From Eucommia ulmoides (Eukaryota > Streptophyta > Magnoliopsida > Garryales > Eucommiaceae), in contig CM028330.1 in assembly GCA_016647705.1 (NCBI GenBank), positions 36,097,534-36,161,533 on the forward strand: a DNA stretch of 64,000 nt. Direction: 5' to 3'. The position numbers were made by a program, and so were the translations under genes. The notes beneath the pieces are model-generated. The model made no database searches. It had not been told where the DNA came from and saw only the letters and a program-made list of their open reading frames with translations. Positions 12,576-64,000 of the stretch are shown one piece after another. How positions within the stretch are numbered: the stretch's first letter is position 1; each line of letters opens with the position of its first letter.

Positions 12576-15500
12576 CTCCCCCTCAAGCTGGAATGTAAAT
12601 GTTTATTATTCCTAGCTTGTTTACCATATCCTCAAAGTTCGGCTTGTGCAGACTCTTTGTCAAGACATCAGTTGTTTGTTCTTTGGTTGGAATGTATGTC
12701 ATGCAAATACTCCCATTATCAATCTTCTCTTTGATAAAATTACGATCCACTTCCACATGTTTTGTCCTACCATGATGAATTGGATTGTGAGCGATACTAA
12801 CCGCAACCTTATTGTCACAATAAAGCTTCATTGGATCTTTACTTGAGATCTTTAGTTCTCTTAGTAGTCTTCTGAGCCACACCCCTTCACATATGCCATG
12901 AGCTAAGGCTCAAAATTCAGCTTCCGCACTACTCCTAGCTACTACGGGTTGTTTTTTGCTTCTCTAAGTTACTAGATTTCCCCAAACATAGGTACAATAC
13001 CCAGAAGTTGATCTTCTATCCACAAAGGAACCTGCCCAGTTAGCGTCTGTGTACACTTCCACCATCCTGTTGTCTCTTTTCTTGAAGAATAGCCCTCTCC
13101 CAGGAGTGTTTTTAAAATACCTCAGTATCCTGTTAACTGCCTCAAGATGTCTCTCCTTTGGTGAGTGCATAAACTGACTTACTGCACTTACAGCGAAAGC
13201 AATGTCTGGACGGGTGTGTGTTAGATAAATTAGCTTGCCTACTAGTCTTTGGTACTACTCTTTGTTCACCTCTTTGCCACCTTCAAGTCCAAGCTTTACA
13301 TTGGGCTCCATAGGTGTCTTAGCTGGTTTACATCTCATCATTCCTGTGTCACGAAGAAGGTCCATGATATATTTCCTCTGAGAAACTACTATACCAGCAC
13401 TGCTTCTGGCGACTTCCATTCCCAAGAAATACTTGAGAGTGCCCAGGTCTTTTAGTTCAAATTCTCCTGCCAAGTATCCTTTTAACTGTTCCAGTTCACT
13501 ATAGTCGTCACCTGTGACAATAATATCATCCACATACACTATCAGAATAGTCTTTCTTCCACTCGCGGAATGCTTGTAGAAAAGGGTATGATCGGCTTGT
13601 GATTGTTGGAAACCCTGCTTCTTCACAGCTTGAGTAAATCTCTCAAACCAATCTCTTGGAGACTGTTTTAAGCCATAAAGAGATTTTTTCAACTTGCAAA
13701 CCAATTTTTCCTTCTGTCTGAACCCTAGTGGTGGATCCATATACACTTCTTCATGTAGGTCTCCGTCCAGGAATGCATTTTTTACATCTAGTTGTTGGAG
13801 TGGCCAATCAAGATTTGCTGCTAGCGACAAAAGAACTCTGATTGAGTTGAGCTTGGCAACTGGTGCAAATGTCTCCTTATAGTCTATCCCATATGTTTGA
13901 GTGAAGCCTTTAGCGACCAGTCTTGCTTTGTATCTGCTAACACTACCATCTGCATTAAATTTGATTGTGAACATCCATTTGCAACCAACTATAGTTTTCC
14001 CTCTTGGCAGCTCTATAACCTTCCATGTATGAGTTTTTTTCTAAAGCTCCCATTTCTTCTAGAACAGCCTCCTTCCATTTTGGATCTGCAAGAGCTTCTT
14101 CAATGTTTCTCAGTATTTCAATACCTGTTAGAGCAGTGGTAAAGCAGAAAAATTTGGAGACAATTTATCATACGAAACAAATTTGGAGATTGGGTGTTGG
14201 GTACACGCTCTTACACCCTTCCTATTAGCAATGGGAACATGAAGGTCCTCTATATTTGGTGCACGCTGATTTGGTAGGTTCAACTCTTCATCCTCAACGT
14301 CATTATTGGTCTCAGGACTTCTAACAGGAGCAGGAATTGGTTCAGATTCTTGGCGTTGCTGACCGGCAGGCTTGTCAATACTATGAGAATGCTTCTTGCG
14401 TAAATAAACAATCTCTTTCCATTGGTCTTTCTGTGGCACAATAGGTTCGGTGAGTTCAGTTGGAGTGGGTAAAGGAAGCAGTGCACCAAGTTTTGTAGGT
14501 TCGACTGAGGTGGACAAAGAAATGGGTGATGGTAAAGAACTGGACACTTCAGGCTCGAACTCTTCCCAAGACTCTGTTTCACCTTGAATCTCCCCCTGAA
14601 GTGAGGATTTGGGAAAGAATGATTGGTGACATCCATTGACACGAACATTCGATGGAGAGTGGGAGAGTAACACTTATACCCTTTTTGTGTAGACGAATAC
14701 CCAATGAAAACACACTTGATGGATTTTGGATCAAGTTTTGATTTGTTTTTTCGGTGATCATGGACAAACACAGTGCACCCAAAGGTCTTTAGAGGGATAG
14801 ATGAGGGACAATGAAACAAGGGGTAAATGTGTATAAGGATAGACATGGGTGTTTTGAAATTGAGGACTTTTGATGGCATACGATTTATGAGATGACAAGC
14901 AGTAAGGATAGCTTCCCCCCAAAGATACTTTTGGAACCGACATGGTAAACATTAGGGCTCTGGTAACTTCAAGTAAATGTCGATTTTTCCTTTCTGCTAC
15001 CTCATTTTGTTGTGAGGTATCAGTACATGAACTTTGGTGAATGATACCATTAGTTGCCAGAAAGTCGCCTAAGATTGTTTTGAAATATTCGGTTCCATTA
15101 TCAGTTCTCAAAACTTTGATTGTGGTTTGAAACTGGTTTTTTACCATAGCGTGAAAACTTTGAAAGATTTTCGCAACTTCAGACTTCTCTTTGAAAAGAT
15201 AAACTCAACACAATCTTGTATGATCATCAATGAATGTAATGAACCATCTTGTACCCGTGACATTGTGAATGCGAAATGGTCCCCAAACATCACTATGAAC
15301 TAGGGAAAATGGACTAGACTCGCTGTAGGGTTTAGCTGAAAAAGATGCTTGTGTGTTTAGCAAGTTGGCATATCTCACAAGAATTTTTTTTTGGATCTTT
15401 ATTGATAGATAACTCAGGAAACAAACGTTTGAGATAATGAAAATTGGGGTGACCTAACCTATAGTGCCACAACAATACATCTTTATTGGAGGTTGATGGT

Positions 15501-48294: not shown

Positions 48295-49248
48295 TCAAAT
48301 GGCGAAACTCCTTGGGCGAACTGCATGATTGAATCTACGTGCCATCTTAGTCTTGTAAGCTTCCATACACATTAATGCCTTATCACGCTTTTCTTTAAGT
48401 GGATCCAATTCTTCTTGTATGCAGCCTTCATTCTCCCTTAAATCAGCAATGGAAACTCTTCTGGTTGGCACCCCAATTTCAACTGGAACGACAGCTTCAG
48501 TTCCGTAAGTTAAAGAAAAGGGTGTTGCTCCAGTTGTAAATGCTGGGGTGGTGCTATAAGCCCATAAAACTTCAGGAAGTTCTTCCACCCATTTGCCTTT
48601 AGCATCATCTAGGCTTTTTTTGAGTGCCTCTTTAATGGAACGATTGGTCACCTCTACTTGTCCGTTTGCTTGGGGATATGCTAGACTGGATGTCCGATGT
48701 TGTATTTGGAGCTCGTTGCACATCCAGCCAACTTTACCTCCAGTAAAAGACGTTCCATTGTCAGAGATAAGAATAGCAGGTATGCTAAAACGGCAAATGA
48801 CTTGTTTCCAAAGAAAAATCTTCACTTCATTTTCTCCCACGGTTACAAAAGCTTCTGTTTCGACCCATTTGGTGAAATAGTCAATCACCACCAGTAAATA
48901 TTTTTTGTTTCCAGGAGCTGGTGTGAAAGGACCCAAAACATCCATTCTCCACTGAGCAAATGGCAAAGAACTAGTGATTGCAGTTTGTTGCTGGGCTGGG
49001 ACCTTGATATCATTAGAAAATTGTTGGCACTTGTCGCACTTTCGTACATATTCTGCCTCATCAACGCGCATGGTAGGCCAATAATATCCCACTCTCAACG
49101 CTTTATGAATCAAGGATCTTCCCCCCTGGTGGTTTCCGCACACGCCTTCATGTATTTTTTGTAGAACATAGCTCGCTTCTTTTGGTCCTAAACACAGCAA
49201 CAAAGGTTGGGAAAAAGATCGTCTATACAGTTTATCGTCGGATAACAC
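48295..49248 (-). pseudogene. Integrase segment of gypsy-3
   Basis: This is the longest open segment in the window. It carries an HHCC-type zinc-binding start (HEGVCGNHQGGRSLIHKALR, CDKCQQF) and a DDE core with DVLGPF, ISDNGTSFTGG and PQANGQVEVTNRSIKEALKK. It ends in the usual LTYGTEAVVPVEIG region. It belongs to the fossil element. Confidence 0.9.
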
Positions 49249-55286: not shown

Positions 55287-57106
55287 ATATATGTGTGTGT
55301 GTGTGTGTATGTGTATGTACGTATGTATATTTTCTTTTCATTTTCTAACAAAAACAAACAATAACATTAACATTGTCTGAGCAAGTAAGTTTGGTTGTAG
55401 TGTTTTCGATAAGAATCAAATGTGTATATCATTACTATTAGTATCATGTTTTGTCCTTATTTTTCTTAAACAAACAAAAACCAAAAAATATAAAAAGAAA
55501 AAGGAGTTTTAAATGGCTAATTTTCTACATGAAAAGAATTTTGTGTTTTAATCTAAAAAAAATAAACTTTAAGTTTTTTCCCCCTTCAAAAATGGTCTTT
55601 AACTTTATTTTTTTTTTGAAAGGGAAATGTCTTTAAAAGATATTTTTTTCTAAACTTAAATGTCTTTAAAATATATTTTTCTAAACTTAAATATCTTTAA
55701 AAATGTGTTTTTCTAAACTTAAATATCTTTAGAAGGTACTTTTCTAAACTTAATGTCTTTAATAAATATTTTTTTAAACATTTATTGTCTTTTAAAAGTA
55801 TTTTTCTAAACTTGTTTTCCTAAAACTATTTTTCATGTCGTCTTTTGAAACTTTGTTTTTAAAAATAAATGATTTTCCTTAAAAGTTATTATGTCTTTTT
55901 TCAAAAAGATGTCTTTTACAAGTTTTTTACAAAAATTATATTTATTACTTGTTTTCATAAAATATGTGTTTTTGTTATTACTTTTCTTTAAAAAAAAAAA
56001 AATTCCCGAAATGGGTTTTGAAAGGAAGGTTCTTCTTTTAAAGTAATTTTTAAAGTTTTCTTAAAACAAGCTCTTTTAAAAAGACTATATGTTTTTTAAG
56101 ATCCCTTTTCCAAATCATTTATGTAAAAAATCATTTCCCAAGTTTTAGCAAAAATATTTTATTTCCAAGAAGTTCTTTCTAAAAAGTCATTCTTCCAAAA
56201 ATGTCTCTTTCAAAATTTTTTTACTTTTTATTTGGAACTTTGTTTTTATTAGTCAAAAAGTAAAAGTTTGTAACTCATTTCTTAACAAAAAAATATTTTT
56301 TTAAAGATGTTTTCCCAAAGAAGATTCTTGAGATATTTTTTCGTATTTTCTAAAATTATTTCTACAAATAAATGTTTTTTTTTTATATATGCATTGTTAA
56401 AACTTTTTTTTTTTTAAGTCTTCTTTACTTGAAACACATGGATTTTCACATTCTATTTTTTTTAATTACTTAAATTTATTTTACTCTTTTTCTTCTCTTT
56501 AAAAACACACACTAGTTTTTGTCAAGACATCCTTAACTAAACAATAAAAACTCCCCTCGAAGGCTAAACTTATCAATTCTTCCATAATCGATAGGATGTC
56601 TAAAATAGGGACGTTGTTCTTTATTTATTGTTTTGTTTTATCTGTTGTTGTTTTTTCTTAAATGTTTTTTTCTTTCATCTTTACAAAAAACAAAAATAAA
56701 AAAGACAAAAATAGTAAAAAGGGGAATTAGTGTGTTAACTAACTTAGGTACCTTCTTCAGAGCGGTGTCTTGAGAAGCCTAACAAATTTCCTGAGCATAA
56801 CCGACCACCAAACTTTAAGGAAATCTCTGGTTGAGACCAAGCATTTTTCAAGTCAAAACTTGGGTTATTTCTAAAATAAAATATTTTTTAGAAATCGCAA
56901 TGACCTAGCACACCATTTAATTTAATGCTAGGTGGCGACTTCATTTTTCAAACAATTATTGTCCCAAAGAATATTTTCAAACTAGCGTTGAGAAAAGCCC
57001 TTGAAACTATCTTTCTAAAATGAACGGATTTTGAGAGGGACGAAACCAAATCATGTTTTCTTCTTCTTTCGCCGCTTCTTTTTTTTCCAAAATCAGGGGT
57101 GTGTCA
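55287..57106 (+). other. 3' segment of the Ogre-like LTR
   Basis: This very AT-rich stretch contains a 32-bp tandem array (55628-55812). Its last part (about 56740-57106) carries phrases such as GGTGGCGACTTCATTTTTC, which I recall from LTRs of Tat/Ogre-type elements. No gene is seen. Confidence 0.6.
55628..55812. repeat. Tandem array, about 32-bp unit, six copies
   Basis: ATGTCTTTAAAA, followed by ATATTTTTCTAAACTTA, repeats six times with lengths of about 30-34 bases and growing decay toward the right. Confidence 0.8.
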
Positions 57107-57440
57107 ATTGGCGTCTCCGCTGGGGACTTTTGAGGGTCAAGCCTAGTTGGAGTTTAGATCAATATTTGAGTCCAAAAAATGTCCAAGAAATACGTCTTCG
57201 ATTTTTAAACATAATAATTCCCTTTTATCAAAAAATATAATAAAATATATTATTAATTTTTATGCATTTGTGTGTGAGTGCATTTATTTCCCATTTACTT
57301 CTATCATGTTTTTGCTTTACACTCTGCATTTTTCTGTAATTATTTCATGTCTTCACTTTTCCACATATATTTATTGTCTTTATATTTTCGTATTTTATTT
57401 TTTGTAAGCTCACTCTAAGGCTCGAGCATCACATTCATTT
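57107..57440 (+). other. Primer-binding site and leader of the Ogre-like element
   Basis: TGGCGTCTCCGCTGGGGA at 57109-57126 is a tRNA-complementary primer-binding site. AT-rich leader sequence follows up to the CATTT at 57436-57440, where copia-4 appears to be inserted. Confidence 0.6.
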
Positions 57441-57679
57441 TGTTGATCCTAAGATTTTGATAACAATTAACTTTGATATTTTTTTCAAAACAAAAATATA
57501 ACCACCCTCCCCCTGAATCTGAGGACGGGTTTTTATAACTCATTTAAGTATCATAATGAAGATTTGAAAAATCTAATCAATAAATCATAAATTTATAACA
57601 AACTCCCCCTTCATAAAACATCACTAATTTCTCCCCCTTTGTCATCTTCAAAAACAAAATTTAAAGGGGGGGACATACA

Positions 57680-58715
57680 AAGATAATTAACTTTAGGCAT
57701 TCATATAATAGAAGCATATTGGAATTTATTTATTTTAACAACAAAACATTAACACTATGTATAAATATCAAATCTATTCAATCTATCAAAATCCACACTA
57801 AAAACATCATTCTTAATTATGCAATCTCTCACTATATAAGTGTGAATAAAATAATTCATTTTAAGGAAAAAAATATAATCTTTGAAACATTAAGACATGA
57901 AACATCTTTCAATAATAGTTTATGAAGCTATCAATATACTGCATACTTATTTCATAAAAATTTCAGCTCAATTTTTCAACAATAATCATTAACGCTCAAG
58001 AACATGAATCATATTTCAATCAATAACATGCATATTAAAAATATTATCTCGTAACATGCTCAATCCCTTACACAATAATAATCATTTAAAAATTCAGAGG
58101 ATATGAAACATATAAGAATGACTTATTGCCATGTATACAGCCAGATACTTAATTCATATAAATATATCCATGTGAGCATATAATCACAATTCTAAACAAT
58201 TCAAATCAAATATATCATTCTTTATCATTTAGTTTACCTCAATTAAAATATCATGCATTTTAATAAATCAAATAATAACAAATTTAGCTCAATTCAACTT
58301 ATTTGTATAAAAGTAAATAGCATGAATGATAGCACATTATACGAATAGTCCTAAAAATATATGCAACACATAATTAGCATTATTTAGTGAAATCACAAAT
58401 ACTCGATTAATCTTCTAAATCACATAACATGCTTTAAAATAAACACATAATCACTACTTGATATAAACATATAAAGACATGTTAATACCCCTTAACTAAA
58501 TGTGATTTTCAGAATCACCATATAATATTTTTAAGATAACAAATAAACACATCATTGAAAATAAGTCTTAGAAACTATTATCAACTTACCTATTTAAAGT
58601 TGGGCACCTCCCTCTTTAACAAATTTAACGAATTTAAAATGCAGAGGAATAAGAGTACCTTTTATATCTTTCGGGGCGACTTTACTTTTTACCTCATTTG
58701 TACCATCGATTGATT
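57680..58715. other. AT-rich non-coding stretch within copia-4
   Basis: About 1 kb is very AT-rich with no recognisable domain. Confidence 0.5.
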
Positions 58716-58785
58716 TGAGTATATGATTTCTCTTAGCCGATGGCTTTGGTCCTCTTTCCTGCTTTCGCTTGCTGCTTATGGGTTC

Positions 58786-59000
58786 TTTGTAACTTCACAT
58801 CTCAAATTTGGTGCATATTTTCTATTTACATATGTCATTTGTGACTTTTTTGTAGCTTCACATTTTGATTTCGGTACATTCTTTTTGTTTGCACATGTCG
58901 ATTGTTGCTTCTTTAAAACCTCACATCTCGACTTCGGTATACCTTTACACTTTATACATATCGCTTGTGAATCCCTGGTAACTTCCCGTTTTCATTTTGA
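58786..59000 (-). repeat. 63-bp tandem repeat, 3.5 copies, next to copia-4 gag
   Basis: Anchors AACTTCACATCTCAAATTTGG, AGCTTCACATTTTGATTTCGG, AACCTCACATCTCGACTTCGG and AACTTCCCGTTTTCATTTTG lie at about 58791, 58854, 58917 and 58980, exactly 63 bases apart. The period is a multiple of three, so in a translated ancestor it would give a 21-residue repeat just downstream of the zinc knuckle. Confidence 0.85.
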
Positions 59001-59780
59001 TATAATCTCTCTGGTTGTTCCTTTCGGTCCAGTCCCAATACTATGTAACTTTGCACAAGCCAATTGTGTAGCTCTTTTCGGTATACATTTCACTTTGGAT
59101 CCATTCTTAGCCATAAACTTAGGGTTTCTGAACGAACATGATACTTTAAAATGTCCAACCCTTTTGCAATAATTGCATCTCAACTTCGACTCAATTCTTT
59201 TGGTAATAAGGGCAAATATCGGAGTTCTCTTATCATTATTTGATGCTTCAGAACTGCTGGAATCCGTATCATCCCATGTTTCTTTCGTAGGTCTCTCTTT
59301 TCTCTTTAGATTACTTTCTGATCCAGCCTCATACTGTTGCACAACCATCTCATGGGTTATTAAATCAATGATGAGTTCATCAGTAGTGAGTTTGATAAGA
59401 TCTTTGACCTCCTTGATTGCAATCACTTGATCAGTTCCCTCCTATGTGTCTTTCAATGTATCCCATATTTCTTTCGCAGAAGCACAACCTAAAATTTTCT
59501 TGTACATATTTGCATCTAAAGAACAAAGCAAAATGTTAGTAGCCTGTGAGTTAATAGATAATTTTCCTTTATCAAAGGAACTCAGTTGCTCATTTCTCTT
59601 GGCTATTCTATTTTCCATAGAAGTATATGGACCGTCTTCAATAACCAACCATGTCTCGTAATTAGTGGCCTGCAAAAAAATAATCATTCTATTATTCCTA
59701 ACAGCATAATTGCTACATGTAAACAATGGTGGATGGTGCATAGAAAGTCCCTCACCTAGTGTGCCTATCGTGTGTGCCAT
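58990..59780 (-). pseudogene. gag segment of copia-4
   Basis: Two adjacent open segments on the - strand carry a UBN2-type gag and a CCHC knuckle, the nucleocapsid part. Similar plant gags belong to copia lineages with long LTRs; lineage was not settled. It is part of a fossil. Confidence 0.8.
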
Positions 59781-59838
59781 GTGATCTTTATTAGTTAGTG
59801 TTTTAAGCTAATCGAGCTAAACCAACTCAGATGCCAAT

Positions 59839-60827
59839 TGTTGGCCCAGTGGAATACCCAAGGGGGGGTGAATTGGGTATTTAAAAAATTTATCAGAATA
59901 AAACATTAATAAGTCAAATAATTAATTTTAATCCTAAATTAATTAGTATCTTTATATCACAGCGGAATTAATTAATCAACTAAGTGCACACTCAAACAAT
60001 AAAAATAGCAAAGTAAATATTGCAGCATACTACGATATATTCTGATTCACTAAGTTACTCTTGGCTAGTCCAGTCCTCCGAGCCCCACAGAGATTCGCAC
60101 CTACTAATACTCAAGATTCCTTTAAAGGTAGGAACCAAACCCTCACACCGATTCTTTTACAGGTTCAGAATCAACCTTTATAAAATTCTTTTCCCAGGCT
60201 AAGCAAAAACATCTATTTTTTATAGGTTAAAGAATACTTAATTCTTTTTAACACTAAGGTCAAAGAATCAAAATCTCAATTTCTAAGATCAATTTTCAAA
60301 AGATAAACAAGTAATGCAATAATAGAATATAATTGGAAAGATCTCACCCGAAATCCACAGAAAGAATAATTAGAATGATGTAATTTCAAATCTGGTAGCA
60401 GCAAAGATTAATAGCAATTGATATTCAAGATCGCCTCTCAGAATAGCTCACATAATATCTCAGAATAATAACTCTTATAAAAGCTCACAAATGATCTTAA
60501 CTCTTTTAGCTCTCTCGATATTGATTAATGATTTATGAAATTCGCAGGTCTATATATATGAAAAATAAATCAGCTCTCTAACGGCTAGTTCTCATGTGTC
60601 ATGATAATTAAATACTCTTTTAAACCCCATTTATTATTATGACTTCATTTTGGTTTAATACAATTAATAATAGCTTTTAAAACTTTTGATTAAGCCGCCC
60701 AAATATTTCTCAATCTCAATTAATTAGAATAGAATCAATTTTATGTACCTAATTGAGAAACATTAAAAATTAATGAACCAAATCAATAGGATTTAAACAT
60801 TAGGTGAAGCATATCTTAAATATAATA
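59839..60827. repeat. Left arm of the 2.7-kb inverted repeat
   Basis: This 989-bp arm begins TGTTGGCCCAGTGGAATACC. It matches the complement of 62512 down to 61157 at an estimated 90-95 percent where aligned; both arms share the GGGGGGGTGAATTGGG start. Related chance frames in the two arms (60020-60202 + and 62147-62329 -) reflect the duplication. Confidence 0.9.
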
Positions 60828-61156
60828 ATATCCCCGAAATCTCTCTCAAATCCCAACTAAAAACGACTACTTTTGGATATAATCTCGGAATAAACAGAAT
60901 CCTAAAACAGCACGTCCGGTCGACCGGTCAGTCGACTTTCCTATTCAGGACGTAGCCAAGCCATCGCTGCTGCGTTCATGGGTCGACTTGTCTGTCGACT
61001 TGAAGATTGAGAGAGTTCGTTTTGCCATTACCGGTCGACATACCTGTCAACTTAGAGATACAGAGATTTCAGTTTCTCTTTACAGGTCGACCTGCCTGTT
61101 GACTTAAAGATACAGGTTGTTTCTGCTGCTTGGTCCGGTCGACTCATCAGTCGACT
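60828..61156. repeat. Loop of the inverted repeat with five GTCGAC-rich motifs
   Basis: Five copies of a 21-base motif GGTCGAC-N7-GTCGACTT (some degenerate) begin at about 60918, 60981, 61033, 61085 and 61137, at spacings of 63, 52, 52 and 52. GTCGAC is itself palindromic. No coding frame is recognised. Confidence 0.85.
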
Positions 61157-62512
61157 TATTATATTTAAGATATGCTTCACCTAATGTTTAAATCCTATTT
61201 TTAATGTTTCTCAATTTAGTACATAAAATTGATTCTATTCTAATTAATTGAGATTGAGAAATATTTGGGGGGCTTAATCAAAAGTTTTAATAGATTATTA
61301 AGTGTATTGAACCAAAATGAAGTTATAATGATATATGGGGTCTAAGAGAGTATTTAATTGTCATGACACATGGGAACTAGCCGTTAGAGAGCTGATTTAT
61401 TTTCCATATATATTGACCTGCGAATTTCATAAATCATTAATCAATATTGAGAGAGCTAAAAGAGTTAAAATCATTTGTGAGCTTTTATAAGAGTTATTAT
61501 TCTGAGATATTGTGTGAGCTATTCTGAGAGACGCTCTTGAAGATCAATTGCTATTAATCTTTGCTGCTACCGGATTTGAAGTTACATCATTCTAATTATT
61601 CTTTCTATGGATTTCGGGTGAGATCTTTCCAATTATATTCTATTATTGCATTACTTATTTATCTTTTGAAAATTAATCTTAGAAATTGTTTCTGATTTTT
61701 ATTGAAGAAAATTTTTATAAACAATTTCTTGAATCTGATTACGTGCTCATTTATTTGCTACCCATATCTTGTTTAAAATCATATTTTCAATCTCATATTT
61801 TTCTATCACTAGATTTGGCATATTAATCGAGTTATTATTTATCTAGGGTGGTAAAAGCTCCGAGTGAGATATTCTGCTTATCAATTTGTATTGGTGAGTA
61901 GTATGATGGATTAAATACTGTTGGAGGTATTTAATCAAAGGGTAGCCGAGTTTCAGTCTTTTCCTGTAAAGAGATTGAGGTAATGATTCTTCCTGAATAG
62001 AATTATGTTTTGAGTGATTTTTGTAACTGTTAAATCCTTACCGGGTAAAAGGATATTTGGAGTGATTGGTGAGGTTTTAATTCTTTGGCCTTAGTGTTAA
62101 AAAGAATTAGGTTATTCTTTAACCTATAAAAAATAGAGGTTCTTCCTTAGCTTAGGAAAATGATTTTGTAAAGGTTGATTCTGAACCTGTAAAAGAATCG
62201 GTGTGATGGTTTGGTTCCTACCTTTAAAGGAATCTTGAGCATTAGTGGGTGCGAATCTCCGTGGGGCTCGGAGGACTGGACTAGCCAAGAGTAGCTTGGT
62301 GAACCAGAATATATCGTGGTATGCTGCAATATTTACTTTGCTATTTTTGTTGTTTGGGTGTGCACTTAGTTGATTAATTAATTCCGCTGTGATATAAAGA
62401 TAATAATTAATTTAGGATTAAAATTAATTATTTGATTTATTGAAGTTTTATTCTGATAAATTTTTTAAATACCCAATTCACCCCCCCTCTTAGGTATTCC
62501 ACTGCGCCAACA
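61157..62512. repeat. Right arm of the 2.7-kb inverted repeat
   Basis: This 1356-bp arm ends GCGCCAACA. It carries about 367 bases, roughly 61690-62065, with no partner in the left arm. That segment includes GAGTGATTTTTGTAAC- and GGTGAGATATTC-like words. Confidence 0.9.
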
Positions 62513-62517
62513 CATTT

Positions 62518-64000
62518 GTATACATTATGAAAAACCTAAAGTCATGGACCTCATTAGGAGGCCGACAATAGGGGTTGAAGTCATGCGATTTAATCATGCC
62601 GATCAGAGCCTCGAAACCTTGGAGAATTAGAAAGATGAGTTAATAGAAGTAAGGCCACGCGATTCATCTGCCGGCATTCAGCTTCAAAACTCGTCATGCT
62701 TGGATCACCAACCAACGATGGATGTTCTACTGGGAAGGACGCCAGATGTTTGAAGATCTGGGAGTCAAACCTTTCAAGGATGCATTAGTAGAAAAGTTGT
62801 GAACCTCATATAGTGAACCTATGATAGAATGATTCCCAAAACCCTTATGCATTTAGGACACTATTTTCGAGAGAAACATTTTATCCTGCTTTATATATAT
62901 TATGTTTGTATATATTTTACCCTGAAACAATATAAAGAAAATATCTAGAATTAGTAAATAATAGAATAGCCAGTATAGGAATTTTCATTCTCCCCCACTT
63001 TTATAAGCCTGTTCACAGTCAGATATATTTTCCAAATTTGACCGTTGAGCAAGCCATTGGAAGAATAATGTGAATCTTTATTTTGACTATACAATGTTTT
63101 ATTAGGCTTGCAAATTTTGTTTTGTTTGGATTCAAGCCCTGTTTTAGTTTGAGGTTGATAGTAGCAAAGAATTGAGATAAAATGTCCATTTACCCAAATA
63201 AAGGTGTCAATCGAGTTTATAAATTCAAGAAAGGACTCCCTGCCTGTGGGGAAGTTATGTCAAAATTTGATATGGTTTTAATCTATAAAATTTGAAAGTA
63301 ATGGAAATCTTATTTCAACTAAGTCATGATCAAACCCAAACGCTTTTGTAAACTATGGTACTAACCTGATTTTTTCCATATAAAGGAAAATTGCTCCATG
63401 TAGAAAAACTCTCATCTCCCGTTCACCGATTTGCACTCGTGCATAAGCATGACAGCCTATCCAAATGGAAGACACAGAGGAATGATCGAATGAACCCGTC
63501 AGGATGACCCAACTAAGAGAAGACATGGTCTCGTTGGATGCAACAATCTAGAAGGATGACATGACAAAATAATCCCTTCACAAAATTGGTCACACTCGAT
63601 AACCCGAACCTATCTTCAATAAAGGGTCGGCGAGGAGCTGAAGAACGTCATCGTCGGAAGTGCTGAAAAATCCCTTCGTATAATTGGTCACTATCGATAA
63701 CCTGAGCTACCTTAACAAGGGATACCGGCGAGAAGTAGAGGTCATCCGACAACCATCCGAATTTTAAACTTCGGATCCAACAACAAGTTTGTACATAAAT
63801 GAAAAAACCCTTTTGTATACTCGGACATACCCAATAACCCGTGCCCACCCGAGCAAGGGCGACAAGGACCAGAGTCCATGTCTTAGAAACTTGGGCCCAC
63901 TGTTGGATGAAGACACTACCAGAAAGATACACTCACCACAACAAGGGCCAATTGTAGATTACTATCTTCGGAAACTCTACAACACTTTCTGCATTTTACA
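62518..64000 (+). other. Unrecognised region after copia-4, probably interior of the Ogre-like element
   Basis: If copia-4 is a single insertion, this continues the Ogre-like leader and gag region. Near 62680-62800 a coding-like stretch reads WITNQRWMFYWEGRQMFEDL, which I do not recognise. No complete frame is present. Three decayed repeats lie at 63565-63870. Confidence 0.35.
63565..63870. repeat. Decayed repeat, three copies
   Basis: ATCCCTTC-N4-AATTGGTCAC-N-CGATAACC, followed by AACAAGGG-CGGCGAG, recurs near 63573, 63669 and 63806 (third copy weaker). Confidence 0.55.

Follow-up and report, generated by a model that had tools for sequence, protein, structure and literature searches.

Positions 57441-62512 of the 64,000-nucleotide stretch of Eucommia ulmoides DNA analysed here (hereafter the window) probably represent a single integrated cDNA that folded back on itself during reverse transcription (estimated probability about 0.68) and that derives from a Ty1/copia element of Sirevirus type, non-autonomous but carrying gag. 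Read along the plus strand, the insertion consists of the tip of a U3 region, an inverted internal region without its terminal PPT, an inverted 5ʹ LTR (LTR5) and a 3ʹ LTR (LTR3) that continues to its U5 end. A 2.7-kb LTR-LTR hairpin (59839-62512) occupies the place where a single LTR would be expected.

The inserted unit and its hairpin

The sequence CATTT is present on both sides of the insertion (57436-57440 and 62513-62517, both plus strand). A plus-oriented U3 terminus, TGTTGATCC, begins at 57441, just inside the left copy, and the U5 end CCAACA closes the element at 62512. Both the TG...CA termini and the 5-bp target duplication that characterize LTR retrotransposon insertion are therefore present in this element. 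The flanks (57241-57440 and 62518-63100) belong to a different repeat with many relatives, of which 40 of 1,203 candidates were scored. The empty-site test used the six best-ranked relatives of the right flank besides the window, and all six can be aligned through the joined flanks without a break, with 74-82% identity. Because these relatives are continuous across the site, 57441-62512 plus one CATTT copy constitutes the inserted piece. An earlier reading of this DNA, made from the sequence only, had proposed a single entering unit bordered by CATTT, which agrees with this result, but the unit is the whole of 57441-62512 rather than 59839-62512 alone.

The U3 tip at the left terminus (57441-57461, plus strand) corresponds to the first ~21 nt of the LTR, as defined by comparison with LTR starts of other copies. 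The inverted internal region that follows (57462-59838, minus strand) is ~2.4 kb long, which is near the family length, and the terminal PPT and normal 3ʹ LTR junction are missing from it. Upstream PPT copies are retained at 57507-57514, 57603-57612 and 57631-57640. Gag-like pieces interrupted by stops are located at 58594-59807 (minus strand) and include a match to PF14223 at 59445-59807 (minus strand) that is barely above the cut-off (E 3.2e-6; 27.2 bits versus a cut-off of 27), and a zinc knuckle is matched only at E 0.098. No pol was seen in the internal region, and we therefore describe the element as non-autonomous. An ATTGG spacer and a PBS-like 9-mer (59825-59838, minus strand) complete this region. 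The TGTTGG...CCAACA ends, the PBS-like site and gag are all found at the places given by the sequence-only reading.

The inverted LTR5 (59839-61158, minus strand) begins with its U5 end at 59839 and reaches LTR nt ~433, and its first portion (59839-60828, minus strand) is the left arm of the hairpin. The loop (60829-61155, minus strand) is a U3 stretch of LTR5 with GTCGAC-type repeats, and the right arm is LTR3 (61156-62512, plus strand), which extends from LTR nt ~751 to the CCAACA end. The inverted arms that had been claimed for this region are real, with 917 of 971 aligned columns identical (94%) and 54 mismatches, 39 of which are transitions (K2P 0.058). Inverted-repeat blocks I1-I5 and I7 between the arms are 87-96% complementary. 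Judging from their length and identity, the arms appear far too long and too similar to have arisen by chance. A 383-bp block of the right arm is missing from the left arm in this alignment. This loss of LTR sequence, ~370-380 bp, is placed near 60262-60278 by flanking BLAST pieces, which overlap by 16 bases.

The loop is ordinary U3 sequence, with which 39 other scored copies align from window position 60700 or 60701 to query position 445-460, where the joint is located. Because the loop is ordinary and other copies align only up to the joint, the LTR is not itself a palindrome. An LTR that is a giant inverted repeat by nature, which had been considered earlier, is ruled out by the single-arm LTRs (2.05-2.17 kb) of the copies that were read. 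The alternative offered at the time, two LTRs brought together head to head, is supported by trees of shared LTR stretches, in which the two arms are sisters with support of 98/92 (25 rows) and 99/93 (34 rows). In both trees, each of the eight 5ʹ/3ʹ LTR pairs from full-length copies also groups as sisters, including L036 with only 88/76 in the 34-row tree (from which L011 and L016 of 11 candidates were left out for a short second LTR piece). Thus, the sister arms are best understood as the two LTRs of one element.

The divergence between the arms (0.058, shared stretches) is lower than that of the eight LTR pairs (0.078-0.115, whole LTRs), and the window insertion therefore looks younger than the eight full-length copies, with the qualification that 0.058 overstates its age if the arms derive from two co-packaged RNAs. 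The branch leading to the left arm (0.041) is about twice as long as that leading to the right arm (0.020); treated as 40 versus 20 changes, this asymmetry gives a p value of 0.013.

A Sirevirus-type LTR family

When the left arm was used as a query against the 946.7 Mb genome, the 40 candidates scored among 14,080 yielded 79 matches, and 18 loci were retrieved for reading. The arm sequence forms one-way LTRs in 16 of these loci, two loci (L026 and L042) also carry a second, opposed LTR stretch arranged tail to tail, and joining of LTRs at the U3 side, as in the window, was seen in none of the 18. The 23 LTRs that were cut out (L029, L033 and L035 contributed none) measure 2,046-2,167 bp, start with TGTTGATCC subject to point changes and end with CCAACA. 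Pattern matching detects 10,708 ordinary LTR starts genome-wide. It also located both outer ends at 12 loci, and among these the 5-bp flanks are identical in seven (full-length L028, L034, L038, L040 and L041; solo L026 and L030), match at four of five positions in L025, L036 and L037, and are mismatched in L042 and L031. At L026 (C7:19892343-19895019), the two family LTRs lie tail to tail and one is truncated at its U5 side, which suggests that one element entered another's LTR. Similar tail-to-tail pairs are present at C16:42053332-42055688, C9:25286494-25288131 and L042.

The family resembles the Sireviruses, as these are described in PMC2829016, in its AT/TG attachment, its CA/ATTGG junction with a short PBS, its AGGGGGAG copies before the 3ʹ LTR, the palindromic repeats that precede the TATA box in its LTR, and its inverted repeat at the PPT/3ʹ LTR junction. 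ATTGG occurs at 10 of 12 junctions and ATTAG at the other two. The short tRNA-Met PBS (TATCAGAGC) is complete as ATTGGTATCAGAGC at two of the 12 junctions and has one to three changes at the others, and the window's PBS-like site, ATTGGCATCTGAGT, has three changes. Under a loose pattern, two or more PPT copies are present near the 3ʹ LTR in nine of 11 copies and one in the remaining two. The window element has three PPT-like copies but is missing its own terminal PPT. The terminal PPT is often ATGGGGAG rather than the exact octamer, and GAGAT directly precedes the LTR in 10 of 11 copies (GAAAT in L040). All four LTRs tested contain 8-10 GTCGAC-like words (raw counts) with starts at nt 393-666, and in three of the four these repeats are located upstream of a TATA-box word, TATATATA, at nt 990-1025. 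On these hallmarks, the family would be assigned to the Sirevirus-type Ty1/copia elements, with the gag match being borderline. Unlike the Sireviruses described in that text, no pol was seen in the window family, and one terminus of the window copy has been replaced by a fold-back. The internal region is ~2.5 kb in L040, L041 and L042. A further full-length relative, L038 (C1:1146500-1156499), has an internal region of ~4.4 kb.

According to PMC2829016, the inverted repeat that brackets the junction of PPT and 3ʹ LTR in Sireviruses averages 28 bp, its right arm starts on average 28 bp inside the LTR, and the resulting stem was proposed in 2010 to help in forming the PPT primer. Osr8, Endovir1-1 and ATCopia43 are named in that paper as elements that lack the repeat. 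The repeat is present in the window element's family, where a 111-nt stretch spanning the junction gives folding z values of -2.0 to -3.9 in six of seven copies; the stem of the seventh folds little better than shuffled sequences (z -0.58). Double compensatory changes were found in none of the 29 stem pairs in these seven close copies.

Form and recurrence of the two joints

Two joints define the rearranged structure. Joint 1 (57459-57471) connects the U3 tip to inverted internal sequence that normally precedes the PPT, and falls within GAT..ACAATTAA, a stretch present in both arms of the PPT stem, one arm being the U3 tip and the other the pre-PPT sequence in inverted form. Joint 2 (61156-61158) connects nt ~433 of LTR5 to nt ~751 of LTR3 through a 3-bp TTA overlap.

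A 31-base pattern for joint 2 occurs once in 946.7 Mb with up to three mismatches allowed. The exact window form of joint 1 also has one occurrence in the genome, and a commoner form that is one base longer has 38 matches. Of 12 such matches that were read, nine run into inverted internal sequence and three are ordinary LTR starts. A stricter 35-base pattern gave 13 matches, 12 of which were read and proved to be 11 joints and one ordinary LTR. Combining these two overlapping match sets, 11 loci with a joint of this type were read besides the window. Their left flanks all differ, that of L069 being a PPT. The earlier reading had anticipated that copies with an LTR made from only one arm would mark the hairpin as a private rearrangement. 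One-arm LTRs do exist and the hairpin's centre joint was found once, but the other joint recurs in type.

When relatives of the window's end were scored, none of the 39 besides the window itself had a match that passes through joint 1. Alignments to 28 of the 39 reach the joint, starting at query position 56-65, and in 16 of the 39 the U3 tip is matched on its own, with its orientation reversed to the ordinary one. The joint of L071 is shared by three of 39 other scored places and is absent from 36, including the 15 that score best. Because the joint is scattered among ordinary copies, separate origins are likely, and these alignments suggest that the joints of the window and L071 probably arose separately. 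A small inherited group of joint-bearing copies around L071 and L073 is possible.

Five of the joint loci besides the window were read beyond the joint. At L073, ~1.1 kb of internal sequence in inverted orientation follows the U3 tip; next come the final 82 bp of the internal region, now in sense, and then the PPT and a full LTR. As a result, 75 bp of the internal end are present in both orientations (score 94, versus 20-29 in three controls), which points to copying rather than cutting. Within the window element, no internal sequence was found twice (scores 30-31), and the argument for copying therefore derives from L073 and not from the window copy. L072 carries the U3 tip, inverted internal sequence, ~180 bp of intervening sequence, and an LTR from nt ~59 to the U5 end; its inverted stretch matches the longer L038-type internal region at 86-90%. 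L074+L075 consists of the U3 tip, the inverted internal region and an inverted LTR that extends nearly to its start (nt 16), and it forms no hairpin. In L069+L076, the internal end leads into the PPT, the PPT into the U3 tip and the tip into an inverted internal end, and at L071 the inverted internal end follows the joint.

Probable origin and possible significance of the element

In normal reverse transcription, the PPT primes plus-strand DNA, and the cDNA has the U3 tip, which is the 5ʹ end of this strand, as its left terminus. To generate the window element, a PPT-primed plus strand would have copied ~20-30 nt of U3 and then paired, by way of the PPT stem, with sequence just upstream of the PPT. 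Extension of the paired strand backwards through the internal region and into LTR5 would have produced the inverted copy. A second switch, guided by 3 bp of homology, would then have moved synthesis onto LTR3 and out to its U5 end. Because both termini of such a product are normal, integrase could insert the folded cDNA. The window, L072 and L073 would differ in the position of the second switch, which would have fallen between two LTRs in the window. The LTR-LTR hairpin would thus be a by-product of a second switch inside the LTR, and it can be explained without any function.

The main competing explanation, which we consider unlikely although it deserves serious attention, places the rearrangement after integration. 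A normal element in plus orientation would have undergone an inversion bounded by the U3 tip in its 5ʹ LTR and by the similar, inverted sequence before the PPT, and the unstable centre of the resulting palindrome (the PPT and parts of both U3 regions) would then have been deleted by microhomology end-joining. This series of events accounts for the window's termini, its duplication, its sister arms and both joints, requires no accident of reverse transcription, and fits the 3-bp overlap at joint 2. The window alone is explained about equally well by chromosomal inversion with deletion and by a fold-back cDNA, and it is the other joint loci that move the balance toward the latter. Inversion leaves unexplained both the 75 bp of internal end in two orientations at L073 and the fold-back after a retained PPT at L069+L076. 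It also predicts that the reciprocal joint should exist at some copies, yet a search with one pattern gave a single match with three mismatches, which is an ordinary internal-PPT-LTR junction. Several observations count against the folded-cDNA reading. Sister support for the arms (99/93) falls short of total, and among the window (CATTT/CATTT), L072 (TAATG/GAATG; 4/5) and L073 (CATTT/CACCT; no match) a perfect target duplication is found only in the window. The window element also has no internal sequence in duplicate, L074+L075 ends in an LTR that makes no hairpin, the joint of L071 is shared by three other places, and the PPT stem shows no double compensatory change and folds weakly in one copy of seven.

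Opposed, tail-to-tail LTRs such as those of L026 and L042 exist in this genome and would fit nested insertion, in which a minus-oriented element would have landed within another element's LTR and both edges would later have suffered deletions. We regard this as highly improbable for the window, because the arms are sisters (99/93), a single outer CATTT duplication is present, complete inner termini are missing and two large deletions would be needed. The palindromic outline would also suit a foldback or LTR-hairpin family that is mobile in its own right. However, the arms are family LTR sequence, and the centre joint occurs once in 946.7 Mb (up to three mismatches) versus 10,708 ordinary LTR starts, which makes this explanation scarcely credible. 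An amplifying hairpin or Foldback/TIR DNA transposon was likewise rejected, as the centre joint and the window's exact form of joint 1 were each found once.

If the folded-cDNA reading is correct, the PPT-flanking repeat would seem to serve repeatedly as a switch point and to leave a recognizable scar. Any plant genome rich in Sireviruses can be screened for this signature, in which pre-PPT sequence in inverted orientation follows a U3 tip, and the occurrences counted. The passages of PMC2829016 that were consulted do not mention the PPT stem as a switch point for folded cDNA. A full-text literature search that covered few subscription papers also listed none that, judging from titles and the opening lines of abstracts, describes fold-back insertions at the Sirevirus PPT repeat, which is weak evidence of novelty. 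The complex LTR elements of PMC1950507 are similar in that abnormal template switching, one complex insertion and 5-bp duplications are involved, but they are fusions of two parent sequences, and the terms 'inver', 'head', 'palindrom' and 'hairpin' are absent from that text.

Inverted duplications of natural origin can silence transposons, as summarized for Mu killer of maize in PMC2725412 (citing Slotkin et al. 2005). The hairpin in the window is likewise an inverted repeat of transposon origin at a single locus, and a high-copy family could be its target. However, Mu killer derives from a DNA transposon that it silences, whereas the hairpin described here consists of retrotransposon LTRs whose two promoters would point outwards. 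In Arabidopsis, LTR hairpins formed by nested EVD insertions have been proposed as a possible source of siRNAs, according to PMC11624286. These hairpins also comprise opposed LTRs at one locus, but they require two nested insertions rather than the one seen here. The window element would therefore represent a one-insertion route to LTR hairpins of the kind discussed there as possible triggers of transposon silencing. TATA-like words are located in the arms at 60558 and 61405, and given this placement the promoters would point outwards, such that transcription would have to enter from outside the hairpin and read through it to yield a hairpin transcript. A broader proposal, that the conserved PPT repeat is a built-in weak point which repeatedly gives rise to folded, integration-competent cDNAs and that those with a second switch inside the LTR, such as the window element, leave long LTR hairpins able to seed siRNA silencing of their own family, strikes us as doubtful.

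Other repetitive sequences are present elsewhere in the window. Six imperfect AT-rich repeats with a spacing of 30-33 bp are located at 55600-55820. The pieces at 13255-14879 and 48295-49248 are further retroelement remains, comprising a copia-type RT (PF07727) and an SH3-like piece on the minus strand and, apart from these, a piece of integrase (PF00665, PF17921).
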